From Candidatus Lambdaproteobacteria bacterium RIFOXYD2_FULL_50_16 (lineage in GTDB: Bacteria > SAR324 > XYD2-FULL-50-16): a stretch of DNA of 42,270 bases. The stretch is from assembly GCA_001783695.1 (NCBI GenBank), contig MFNE01000009.1:4802-47071 (forward strand). The letters run 5' to 3'. The position numbers were made by a program, and so were the translations under genes. The notes beneath the pieces were generated by a model. It was not told where the DNA came from and made no database searches. It worked only from the letters and a program-made list of their open reading frames with translations. Of this stretch, positions 6,170 to 30,934 are shown in pieces. Each line of letters starts with the position of its first letter. Position 1 is the first letter of the stretch.

Positions 6170-6811
6170 TTGAAACGAATTGATCTAAATCAGGCCTGGG
6201 GGCAGGGGATTTTATACGGAATCACGGACGCCCACTTATTCGGCGGGAGTTGCGCAGAGGCCGCTAAAGCCTTGGTGTTAGCTGGGGTTTCTTGGGTTCA
6301 GTACCGGGCTAAGGGGCTAGATTTGGCCACCCAACGAGCCGAGCTAAAAGACTTGATCCCTTGGGTTAGGGCTCAAGGGGCCTATCTATTAGTGAATGAT
6401 TCGGTAGAGCTGGCCCAAGAATTGGGGGCGGATGGGGTGCATTTGGGTCAGGGGGACATGGAACCCCAAAAGGCGCGGGCCCTCTTGGGGCCTTACGCGA
6501 TCCTGGGTTGGTCCACCCACAACCTAGCCCAAGTCCAAAGTGCTCAAGGGATGGACCTGGATTATCTGGGAGTAGGCCCGGCCTTTCCTACTCAAACCAA
6601 ACCAGCAGAGCCAGTCGTTGGATTGGATTTTTTAGGGCAAGCTAGTTTGTACTCAAGCTTGCCCTTGGTGGCCATTGGTGGGATCGACTTAAGTCGGATA
6701 AAGGCCGTTCAAAAGACCGGGGTCCGTTCAGTTGCAATGATTCAGGGGCTTTTTGAGGCCCCCGATTTGAGGGCCCGAGTTCAAAGGATTAAAGAGCGTT
6801 TAGCCCGTTAA
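6170..6811 (+). CDS. thiE: Thiamine-phosphate synthase
   Basis: YGITDAHLF, WVQYRAKG, LLVNDSVELAQELGADGVHLGQGDM, GVGPAFPTQTK, LPLVAIGGI; TTG start with upstream GAGGAAA. Confidence 0.92.
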   Translation: MKRIDLNQAWGQGILYGITDAHLFGGSCAEAAKALVLAGVSWVQYRAKGLDLATQRAELKDLIPWVRAQGAYLLVNDSVELAQELGADGVHLGQGDMEPQKARALLGPYAILGWSTHNLAQVQSAQGMDLDYLGVGPAFPTQTKPAEPVVGLDFLGQASLYSSLPLVAIGGIDLSRIKAVQKTGVRSVAMIQGLFEAPDLRARVQRIKERLAR

Positions 6812-7761
6812 CCTTGGGGAAAGCGGGTTTTCTCAAAGGGGCGTGGGCGGGCCTTGACCTGCTGGCGGACCTCTTCGATTAAGCCGTTGATCTGTACAGA
6901 ATGGTAACCTAAGGTGACTCCCGGTTCGCCCGATAACATTGGCTTGCCGTTAAGCTCCAAGGTAATTAGATTTTTTAGTTCGTTGCTCATGGGCAGAACC
7001 TCGCCCTTTTCTAAGCTTTTTTCCAACTGCGCCCGAGAAATAAACAACTCACCTAAAATCGCGGTCGCTTTATAATCAGCTTCTTGCTCAATGATCCGCT
7101 CTAAAGGTTCCTTTGGGGTAGGCACCCGGCCCGGTTCGCCAGTTAGTAGGGCCTTTTTGCCATAGCGCTTTAAAATGGGGTCTAGTTGATAGGCAGAAAA
7201 ACAGAATTCTAGGTGGCTTTTAAACCCTTTATATTCAACCGCGACCTGGACACTAACGCAAGATTCGCCCGGTTCCATGATTTTAGCCTTGATCCGGTGG
7301 CTGACCAATTTCTTCACCTTAACTTGGCTGGGCAAGATCCGGTTCCAGCAGCGGTTAAAAATTTCAACAATCTCTTGAACCCCGGTTTCGAGTCGAGGAT
7401 AGTTTTCTAAGGTGACTGCAAAGTCTTTGGGTAACTTGGCCCGCCCTTGTTCCACCAGTTCCTTGCGAGCCAAAATCAAGTTGGATAAGGGGTTTTCTAA
7501 GATCAAAAGACATTCCCCGCCCAAGACCGACATTTCGACCACAAAAATCGGGGTCGGTTGAGGAATCTTGGCCAAATAGGGCTCAAATTTTCCGGCCGGA
7601 CTTAGCTTAGACGAGAAGTGGCAGCTTATGGTGAACTGGTCAAAAAAATAGGATTCCAGTTCGCTTAAAAAATGCCGGGTAACCACTTCTAGGGTTGTAA
7701 AATAACCGGACCTTACCTGTTCGCCTCGGGTTAAATCGTAGGGCCTGACAACAGCGTTCAT
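6808..7761 (-). CDS. fliM: Flagellar motor switch protein FliM-like, divergent
   Basis: FliM middle-domain-like LETGVQEIVEIFNRCWNRI and VSVQVAVEYKGFKSHLEFCFSAYQLDPIL, C-terminal SpoA-like ELKNLITLELNGKPMLSGEPGVTLGYHSVQI; adjacent to fliN-like gene. Confidence 0.8.
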   Translation of the reverse strand: MNAVVRPYDLTRGEQVRSGYFTTLEVVTRHFLSELESYFFDQFTISCHFSSKLSPAGKFEPYLAKIPQPTPIFVVEMSVLGGECLLILENPLSNLILARKELVEQGRAKLPKDFAVTLENYPRLETGVQEIVEIFNRCWNRILPSQVKVKKLVSHRIKAKIMEPGESCVSVQVAVEYKGFKSHLEFCFSAYQLDPILKRYGKKALLTGEPGRVPTPKEPLERIIEQEADYKATAILGELFISRAQLEKSLEKGEVLPMSNELKNLITLELNGKPMLSGEPGVTLGYHSVQINGLIEEVRQQVKARPRPFEKTRFPQG

Positions 7762-7768
7762 GGTTCTC

Positions 7769-9037
7769 CTAATAGTCGATGCGGGTGACCCGAACGCCCA
7801 ATTGATCCTCGTTTATCTGCACCACTTCGCCCTTGGCAATCACTTGGTCACCCAAGCAAATATCCACCGGGTCCCCGATTTTGCGATTGAGTTCGATCAC
7901 CGAACCATAATCCAGCCGGGTTAAATCCTCACCAGAGAGATTGGCGCTACCAATCTGCACGGTCAGTTGGTGTGGGATCTTATAAAGCAGGTTTTTGCCG
8001 ACTAAAGCCTGCTCCGTCATCTTCGGCTCGCTAGCCGGGGGGCGGACTACCGGGGACTTGGGCAGTTCAGGGCCCAGGTCAACCTTCATCATCTCGGCCG
8101 GGCTGGCGGTTTGGTCGATATCGAAGTCTTCGGGCTCACCAAAGACATCGTCGTTCTCTTCCGCCTCTTCGATAATCTCGGTTAAACCAGGACCCATGTC
8201 TTCTTCGAGGTCGTCTAAACCGGGTTCGTCAAGATCAGGCATCGAAAAGTCGTCCTCTTCTGAAATCGAATCCTCTTCACCCATAAGAGGTTCTTCGAGA
8301 TCATCAAAACTGGCCTCTTCGGGTGCCATGTCAAAATCTTCGGGCATTGATAGTTCCTCTTCCGGCTCTTCGGCATCGGGCATTTCTAAGTCATCTTCGA
8401 GGCTTTCCTCTATCAACTCGTCGTCCTCTTGCACTAAATCGTCTGGCAAATCGGTTTCTAATTCTTCTTCTAACAGGTCCTCGTCGTGTGCCTCTAGGTC
8501 GAGGTCGTCCGAGAGATCTACGGCGGCGTCCTCTGGGAGACTCGGGGGCTCGTCAAAGGGCTCTGCGTCTTCTTCGGTCGCGGCCAGATCGTCTGCCAGT
8601 CCGGCGTCCATTTCGTCGGCCTCAAGGTCGCCACCCATGTCCAAATCTTCTTCAGGCTCAACCACTTCCATTGATTCGTCTAAAACCAATTCCTCTGAAA
8701 GACTGGCCAATTCGGCGTCTAGCTCGTCGTCTGAATCAATTTCTTTGATTTGATCCACCGTTTCGGGCAAATCGGCCTCATCCAGGCCCAGTTCGTCTTC
8801 TAGGCCACTCATGTCCACTGCGGGCAGGTCGTCTCCCATGTCTAGGTCGTCGCCGCCTAGGTCCAGGTTATCTGCGGAATCGTCTAGGTCGCCACTTAGG
8901 TCCTCTTCTCCTAGGTCCGCGTCCATGTCTAGGTCCCCACCTAGGTCGAGGTCGCCATCTAGATCGAGATCCCCGGCCTCGCCGAGGTCATCCATGTCCA
9001 TATCTAGGTCTAGATCGAGTTCGTCAGTTTTTGCCAT
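7769..9037 (-). CDS. fliN: FliN-like motor switch protein with a very long Asp/Glu-rich N-terminal region
   Basis: C-terminal SpoA/FliN: LLYKIPHQLTVQIGSANLSGEDLTRLDYGSVIELNRKIGDPVDICLGDQVIAKGEVVQINEDQLGVRVTRI; N-terminus is low-complexity DLDLDMDMDDLGEAGDLDLDGDLDLGGDLDMD... Confidence 0.86.
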   Translation of the reverse strand: MAKTDELDLDLDMDMDDLGEAGDLDLDGDLDLGGDLDMDADLGEEDLSGDLDDSADNLDLGGDDLDMGDDLPAVDMSGLEDELGLDEADLPETVDQIKEIDSDDELDAELASLSEELVLDESMEVVEPEEDLDMGGDLEADEMDAGLADDLAATEEDAEPFDEPPSLPEDAAVDLSDDLDLEAHDEDLLEEELETDLPDDLVQEDDELIEESLEDDLEMPDAEEPEEELSMPEDFDMAPEEASFDDLEEPLMGEEDSISEEDDFSMPDLDEPGLDDLEEDMGPGLTEIIEEAEENDDVFGEPEDFDIDQTASPAEMMKVDLGPELPKSPVVRPPASEPKMTEQALVGKNLLYKIPHQLTVQIGSANLSGEDLTRLDYGSVIELNRKIGDPVDICLGDQVIAKGEVVQINEDQLGVRVTRIDY

Positions 9038-29575: not shown

Positions 29576-30934
29576 TTGGAAAAGATTAGATCTCGCCAAG
29601 TGCTCTTAGACGAGTTAGACGAATCGATGACCATTACTGGTTATTTAAGCCTGCAAGCCCCTTACAGCCCTGCGACAGACAAAGCCTGCCAGTGGCTGAT
29701 TTTAAACTTCAAGGGGGCTACGGCTTCGGTTGAGCGTGCTGGAAAAAAGGGTGCGATCCCGGTTGAGAAGTTGCAGCCTGGCGATGTGGTTAATCGCATC
29801 TACGACTTCCCCCCTACCTTAGCCAAGTTAACCAAAGTTTCGCCTGCGTTACTAGACAATCTCCAAAAACGCGGTTTTACCAAGTTTCAGATCGAAGAAG
29901 AGGTGCATAGTGCCACCTCCCCTCGGCAATTAACCAGAGAACACCAAGAAAAGGTGGCTGAGGCTTCGGTCTTTATAGAAATGGTAGAGGCGTCTGTGGC
30001 GACCCACAAAGAGGCGTCTGGGGCGGTCGAAAATATGTTGGATGACGCCCGTTTAGGGAAGATTAACGCCGAACAGGTCGGCAGCTATGTAAACCAGATT
30101 TGCGAAGATGGAAAGGGCGAAGCCCTGACGGCCATGGCTTCGCTTCAGGCTTCGGACCAGACCTACGCGCACTGCGTCGAGGTAGGGGCCATCTTTCAGA
30201 CCGCTTATTTAGAGATTTGCCGCTACACGGGCAACAAAAACATCTTTACCGACTTGAACCAAATGACCTTGGCTGCGTTTATGCACGACTTTGGTAAAGC
30301 GAAGGTGCCCAAAGAAATCCTAGACTCAACCACTCGCTTTGAGCGTGATTCGAAAGAGATGAACCTGATGCAGTCCCATCCTCGCTTTGGGGCGGAACTG
30401 CTGACGGACATGGGATTGCCGAACTATGTGATTAACATGGCCCATTACCATCACACCAAAATGGACGCAGGTATGAAGTCTAGTTATCCCCCGGCTGACT
30501 ATGGGGACGTGATCTTCGAGACCCGGCTTTTGGCTTTGGTGGATGTGTACCAAGCCCTGATTGGCAAACGAAAATACAAACGCGCCTGGACCCCCCCTGA
30601 GACTATACGCTACCTAGCCAGTCTTTCTGAAATTGAGTTTGAAGAGAGTTTGTATCAGCATTTTGTTAATGCTTTAGGCAAATTCCCCAAGTCTAGCTTG
30701 GTGCAGCTTTCAGACCTACGCACTGGCTTTGTGATGAATGTGCCCGAAGACAAAAACTTGCTAGAGCGCCCGCAAGTGGCAGTGGTGCTCGATAAGGACG
30801 GGGAACACTTTGAGCACAGCGAGTTGGTCGATCTTTCTGTAGAGTTGGACTTGCGTATTATCAAAGAGTTAGACGCCCAAGCGGTCTTTGGCCAACATGC
30901 CCTAGACGTTTTTTGTCGGATTAACGTTTCTTAA
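29576..30934 (+). CDS. HD-GYP-like metal-dependent phosphohydrolase
   Basis: FMHDFGKAKVPKEIL, SHPRFGAELL, HYHHTKMDAGMKSSYPP, VDVYQALIGKRKYKRA; TTG start with AAGGAG RBS. Confidence 0.85.
   Translation: MEKIRSRQVLLDELDESMTITGYLSLQAPYSPATDKACQWLILNFKGATASVERAGKKGAIPVEKLQPGDVVNRIYDFPPTLAKLTKVSPALLDNLQKRGFTKFQIEEEVHSATSPRQLTREHQEKVAEASVFIEMVEASVATHKEASGAVENMLDDARLGKINAEQVGSYVNQICEDGKGEALTAMASLQASDQTYAHCVEVGAIFQTAYLEICRYTGNKNIFTDLNQMTLAAFMHDFGKAKVPKEILDSTTRFERDSKEMNLMQSHPRFGAELLTDMGLPNYVINMAHYHHTKMDAGMKSSYPPADYGDVIFETRLLALVDVYQALIGKRKYKRAWTPPETIRYLASLSEIEFEESLYQHFVNALGKFPKSSLVQLSDLRTGFVMNVPEDKNLLERPQVAVVLDKDGEHFEHSELVDLSVELDLRIIKELDAQAVFGQHALDVFCRINVS

Follow-up and report, generated by a model that had tools for sequence, protein, structure and literature searches.

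The window analysed here is the whole stretch of 42,270 nucleotides taken from contig MFNE01000009.1 of Candidatus Lambdaproteobacteria bacterium RIFOXYD2_FULL_50_16, a lineage which we take to be SAR324. Its minus strand carries two adjacent SpoA genes, referred to below as fliN-ac and fliM2, which lie outside the flagellar operons among neighbours that look by eye rsmG-like, thiE-like and metF-like. The features of the pair are as follows.

7769..9037, minus strand: fliN-ac, a FliN-like protein of 422 aa with a hyperacidic tail; ATG start, intact reading frame
7778..7987, minus strand: SpoA (FliMN_C) domain, residues 351-420 of FliN-ac, by Pfam match
8003..9037, minus strand: acidic tail, residues 1-345 of FliN-ac, 42% D+E, net charge -138
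8825..9025, minus strand: D-L-D-x-D near-repeats, residues 5-71 of FliN-ac, read from the protein sequence
8699..8815, minus strand: conserved island DMSGLEDELGLDEADLPETVDQIKEIDSDDELDAELASL, residues 75-113 of FliN-ac, from family conservation and predicted helices
8663..8683, minus strand: LDESMEV motif, residues 119-125 of FliN-ac, recognised by eye
6808..7761, minus strand: fliM2, a divergent FliM of 317 aa (PF02154 and FliMN_C), 7 bp after the end of fliN-ac

The only Pfam domain of FliN-ac above its cut-off is FliMN_C (E 1.4e-17; 63.8 bits against a cut-off of 23.8), and the same search gave no CheC, LysM, TPR, FimV or EF-hand domain. SpoA is confined to roughly the last 77 residues, close to the 75 given in the preliminary description, and its closest solved structures are FliN of T. 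maritima and of Salmonella. Against the NCBIfam FliN equivalog TIGR02480 the protein scores 69.3 bits, below the cut-off of 84.05. The residues V111-V113 of E. coli FliN form the FliH-binding patch and also contact CheY-P (PMC6700473). FliN-ac reads GEVVQIN where canonical FliN has GEVVVV, so that the first and second patch positions are hydrophobic and the third is Gln; the hydrophobic patch is kept in the three other FliNs of the cell. Scored with their own profile, SpoA domains of the FliN-ac type reach at least 93 bits, against at most 80.6 for all other SpoA domains among the matches listed, inside or outside the phylum, and by these scores they appear to be a separate set.

The hyperacidic N-terminal region of about 340 residues described earlier is real: the 345 residues contain 144 Asp and Glu, six aromatic residues and no Cys, with the charge spread evenly at -7 to -14 per 25 residues up to about residue 325. 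The D-L-D-x-D near-repeats at its start are likewise present. Pfam found no folded domain in the roughly 345 residues before SpoA, and no hydrophobic segment is visible there. A low-confidence AlphaFold2 model built from a two-sequence alignment (mean pLDDT 45) gives strands in the SpoA domain, helices in the tail at residues 77-82 and 102-116 only, and predicted disorder elsewhere, in keeping with the disorder suggested before, apart from the two helices. At the DNA level the repetitive part is limited to 2.7 copies of an 18-bp unit (8927-8974, 48 bp), and the length of the tail is therefore not that of a collapsible DNA repeat. The D-L-D pattern occurs at 20 sites in the genome, of which only that in fliN-ac is strongly acidic across 80 residues (0.51). 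With the pattern used, the sole other clear D-L-D acidic tail in the genome belongs to a 491-aa protein, PilZ-like by eye (L189:2217-3692), with an acidic C-terminal stretch EDLDLRSEDLDLDLEPDEEDE.

The preliminary description, whose observation of the tail stands, omitted the partner gene fliM2, which is needed for any interpretation of it. FliM2 matches PF02154 (E 5e-9) and FliMN_C (E 4e-6), and scores 75.3 bits against the TIGR01397 FliM cut-off of 219.6. A moderately confident structure model (mean pLDDT 51, highest at residues 23-190) resembles solved FliM in Foldseek (E about 1e-10 to 1e-11), with TM-scores of 0.67-0.81 when normalised by isolated FliM middle domains, and a profile search matched the FliM of 8umd. 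Sequence and model together point to a FliM middle-domain fold followed by a C-terminal SpoA domain. In FliM the N-terminal LSQxEIDALL peptide binds CheY-P and the GGxG motif binds FliG (PMC6700473). The docking peptide (EIDxLL / LSQxEIDALL) is absent from the N-terminus of all 38 FliM2 proteins; a pattern search on the sequences failed to find GGxG in 35 of the 38, including all ten of the family to which the window belongs, which has thus lost both contact motifs. At least one FliM2 of family f3 (L076) has GGSG near the expected place.

The pair is obligate: at every one of the 38 SAR324 loci examined the two genes lie side by side, and the neighbour of fliM2 is always a FliN lengthened by a long stretch at its N-terminus, in some cases ended by a contig edge. 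Since the flanking genes change between genera while the pair stays, the pair constitutes a conserved unit; in f3 motA and motB lie upstream of it (Pfam matches at L078 and L086, a homologous pair at L076). Complete tails of the SAR324 orthologs are about 210-680 residues long and mostly have a D+E fraction of 0.28-0.46, with two f3 orthologs at 0.19 and 0.22. An assembly collapse or artefact was rejected, as 37 other SAR324 loci from independent assemblies share this architecture while differing in the length of the tail. FliM2 is present in 10/10 genomes of the family and, at E < 1e-20, in 40 of 52 across the phylum, where its absence from the other 12 is weak evidence because these genomes are mostly incomplete MAGs. 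From its gene content the phylum appears to be essentially always flagellated, with FlhA in 51/52 genomes and a canonical FliM in 52/52.

Within the sample the pair is restricted to SAR324. FliM2 was not found outside it among approximately 235 genomes sampled across the domain, which were searched for FliM2 and this SpoA subfamily rather than for acidic tails as such. Three borderline outside matches at E < 1e-20 were rejected: each is a canonical FliM that carries the docking peptide, and GGxG is seen as well in two. Eight other long FliNs were examined, one of them a second long FliN inside the phylum; the seven from outside are, by sequence, mostly CheC-domain FliYs. The extensions have a D+E fraction of 0.09-0.27. 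The literature searched, which left most subscription journals aside, contained no account of a FliN with an acidic tail, nor of C-ring paralogs in SAR324. The suggestion that the locus belongs to an undescribed system thus agrees both with a real architecture and with this search, and what is apparently an extra rotor module seems to have gone undescribed so far.

Short conserved islands are embedded in the variable acidic tail. The main one in the window reads LSSLEDELGL...SDDELERELASL and corresponds to a family island of 38-41 residues (D-[LMF]-[ST]-x-L-E-[DT]-E-L ... E-L-A-S-[LFM]), coinciding with the only helices predicted for the tail in the low-confidence model. When a profile built from eight of the nine complete family tails was scored on the ninth, the islands reached 25-84 bits against best-shuffle scores of 10-25, every real island exceeding the best of 500 shuffles of its own tail (9/9); for the window the island scored 57 bits and its shuffles 14 at most. 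A search of the 52 phylum genomes returned one match in each of the ten family genomes and none in the other 42 or in any other protein. The second conserved element, LDESMEV, is recognisable by eye in family orthologs as LDESMEV, LDESLEV, LDESMVV, LDDSMVV or LDQSMQV. For the island of f1 no match turned up in f3 or f4, whose tails carry, by eye, other recurring islands, among them FADLDNEI and DVDGxxDELxxxLGLETEI. An HD-GYP-type protein, so assigned by eye, at 29576-30934 of the window has the N-terminus LLDELDESMTI, which resembles LDESMEV, maybe by chance.

The same genome encodes three short FliNs of 155, 125 and 154 aa, a canonical FliM that starts MSQVLSQDEVDSLLKGI and retains an intact CheY-docking peptide, two FliGs and a single FlhA. 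Because of the three short FliNs, FliN-ac is not the sole FliN of the cell, and that candidate role was rejected. The idea that the genome encodes another export system was likewise rejected, since it has only one FlhA. The preliminary description had named a canonical short fliN elsewhere, with the present gene unexpressed, as evidence against its reading; the three short FliNs supply one half of this. Its proposal that the acidic segment replaces a missing FliM peptide is not supported, because the canonical FliM carries the peptide, which is therefore not missing from the cell. A docking segment of the FliM-peptide type hidden in the tail was rejected for the window: the docking-peptide PSSM scored 18.2 at best in the window tail against mean shuffle maxima of 15.8-16.5 (p 0.22 and 0.30), no better than shuffled tails, with a weak signal in some f4 orthologs only (p 0.04-0.06).

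FliM-like peptides do occur on sister FliNs. A different FliN of 438 aa from an f4 genome, G042 (L185:5634-6950, equivalent to L176:834-2150), has a tail that strings together FliM-like peptides of the CheY-docking type, MNQDDIDALLAQA, MDQGNIDALLESA and others like them; scores above 20 are reached at 12 places, where shuffles average 0.07. The sister FliN of G040 has four places above the threshold. FliN paralogs of other SAR324 genera carry two to four tandem short motifs before SpoA (L179:717-1484, L180:592-1344, L181:1292-2065, L182:613-1263 and L183:365-1201), such as DQADIDALL in G040 and LDDDLQAALDD, MDDDLASMMDD, LDDDLKSIMEG and LDSDLESMLGD in f3, and these read as fast-evolving motif arrays on FliN. 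Since a sister paralog carries FliM-like peptides, SAR324 FliN tails can become motif carriers. A multivalent CheY-docking FliN, as G042 may possess, would be striking and is possibly more interesting than FliN-ac itself.

Among published systems the split FliN/FliY C ring and HubP/FimV come closest, and neither has this combination of features. FliN-ac shares the C-terminal SpoA domain with FliN and differs from it by the 345-residue acidic tail and the Gln at the V113 position; FliM2 shares the middle fold and SpoA with FliM (PF02154 / TIGR01397), and lacks LSQxEIDALL and, within the family, GGxG. In the split C ring of Campylobacter and Helicobacter extra SpoA paralogs divide the C-ring work of a single motor, with distinct tasks in Campylobacter, as they may here, and degenerate EIDAL motifs occur in its FliN and FliY (PMC6946799); FliY there is a CheC-domain fusion, in place of which the SAR324 system has a further FliM and the acidic tail.

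We propose that fliN-ac and fliM2 encode an accessory, non-switch C-ring (SpoA) adaptor specific to SAR324, whose tail presents docking helices to a soluble partner, and give this reading a probability of about 0.4. The complex would work beside the canonical FliG/FliM/FliN switch. In this reading the SpoA domains of the two proteins would pair as FliM-C does with FliN, and through this pairing the assembly would be anchored to the lower SpoA ring or the export platform of the flagellum. The tail would be a flexible, self-repelling polyanion reaching into the cytoplasm, presenting short amphipathic helices (LSSLEDELGL, DELERELASL) together with LDESMEV, and these islands may bind a soluble partner much as the disordered FliM N-terminus captures CheY-P, FliM-N being disordered until CheY-P binds (PMC6700473). 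The strict pairing, the flagellated phylum, motAB in f3, the FliM fold, the lost motifs, the island and the peptides of the sister FliNs were counted in favour of the adaptor; the family-specific islands, the two less acidic f3 tails, the position of the pair outside flagellar operons and the low confidence of the tail model were counted against it.

Several other readings have to be weighed against the adaptor. The acidic tail could be a polar tether that holds the C ring, or the chemosensory or FlhF/FlhG machinery, at the cell pole. HubP and FimV, which likewise act in the setting of flagella and cell poles, have a long acidic stretch in the cytoplasm that is unstructured (about 25% D+E in P. 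putida FimV; pI 3.5-3.8) and whose length and repeats differ between close relatives (PMC12918733), and the FliN-ac tails behave alike. Yet HubP/FimV proteins have LysM, membrane and TPR domains, FliN-ac and FliM2 have no LysM, membrane or FimV/TPR domain, the acidic region of FliN-ac sits on a SpoA protein, and no polarity gene was recognised beside the pair, so that we regard a tether as unlikely. A soluble sorting platform like SctQ, with FliM2 and FliN-ac carrying FliH-FliI or chaperone-substrate complexes to the export gate and having no switching role, would suit two SpoA proteins that lack the FliG and CheY contacts, and FliH is anchored by FliN/FliM or FliY platforms in other species (PMC6946799). 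SctQ/SpaO (TIGR02551) is indeed a SpoA-based platform without FliG binding, but the similarity of 52.8 bits is weak and well below the cut-off of 100.8, the FliM and FliN parts lie here on two genes in a genome with one FlhA, and FliN-ac has Gln at the third FliH-contact position, where the other three FliNs are hydrophobic; on balance this is rather unlikely.

An unspecific electrostatic brush or Ca2+/Mg2+ buffer on the rotor, for which the details of sequence would be irrelevant, accounts for a tail of even charge whose length and exact sequence vary widely, and to that extent the brush or cation-binding idea of the preliminary description survives. It does not predict a 39-residue island conserved far above shuffled tails, nor strict linkage with a FliM that lost its FliG motif, and no EF-hand or other known cation-binding Pfam domain was found, which makes it quite improbable. 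That the pair serves a non-flagellar process, as its setting among housekeeping genes and the loss of both switch motifs from FliM2 might suggest, is harder still to credit for a pair confined, in our sample, to an essentially always flagellated phylum and lying near motAB in f3. Canonical FliN and FliM genes elsewhere could leave fliN-ac and fliM2 as a decaying duplicate, but independent assemblies from across the phylum contain the two genes, their frames are intact, the pairing is strict and the islands are conserved. Decay or artefact is therefore extremely improbable, and an artefact is already refuted by the 38 loci.

The adaptor reading can be carried further, to the rather doubtful proposition that SAR324 motors contain an additional SpoA assembly, peculiar to this phylum, which serves neither as the switch nor as an export platform of the classical kind but as a polyanionic rotor hub, its disordered tails capturing a soluble regulator through fast-evolving short helices. 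Were this true, the sister FliN with its 12 peptides would suggest a general strategy in which FliN tails become multivalent docking arrays. The C ring counts as a core machine that hardly varies. If a whole phylum were to carry an additional, obligate FliM/FliN pair in which the two contacts that define FliM are gone and an extremely acidic tail has been gained, the make-up of the rotor would be much more plastic than model species lead one to expect, and FliN-ac would point to a testable route for recruiting regulators to the rotor.

Further C-ring genes were observed in these genomes. The two FliGs of the window's genome are near-identical (G000:C39:22260 and G000:C26:99200; L100:4749-5762 and L101:5189-6202) and lie on different contigs, with no other flagellar gene recognised beside either. 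In most genomes of f4 a third FliM, with about 40-49% identity to the canonical protein (for example G041:C3:16359-17342), occurs alongside the canonical FliM and FliM2. At another locus (L105; G004:C195:1-15000) three SpoA reading frames of 84, 213 and 329 aa are clustered, including one FliM without the N-terminal docking peptide, and this cluster is possibly a second export or C-ring system.
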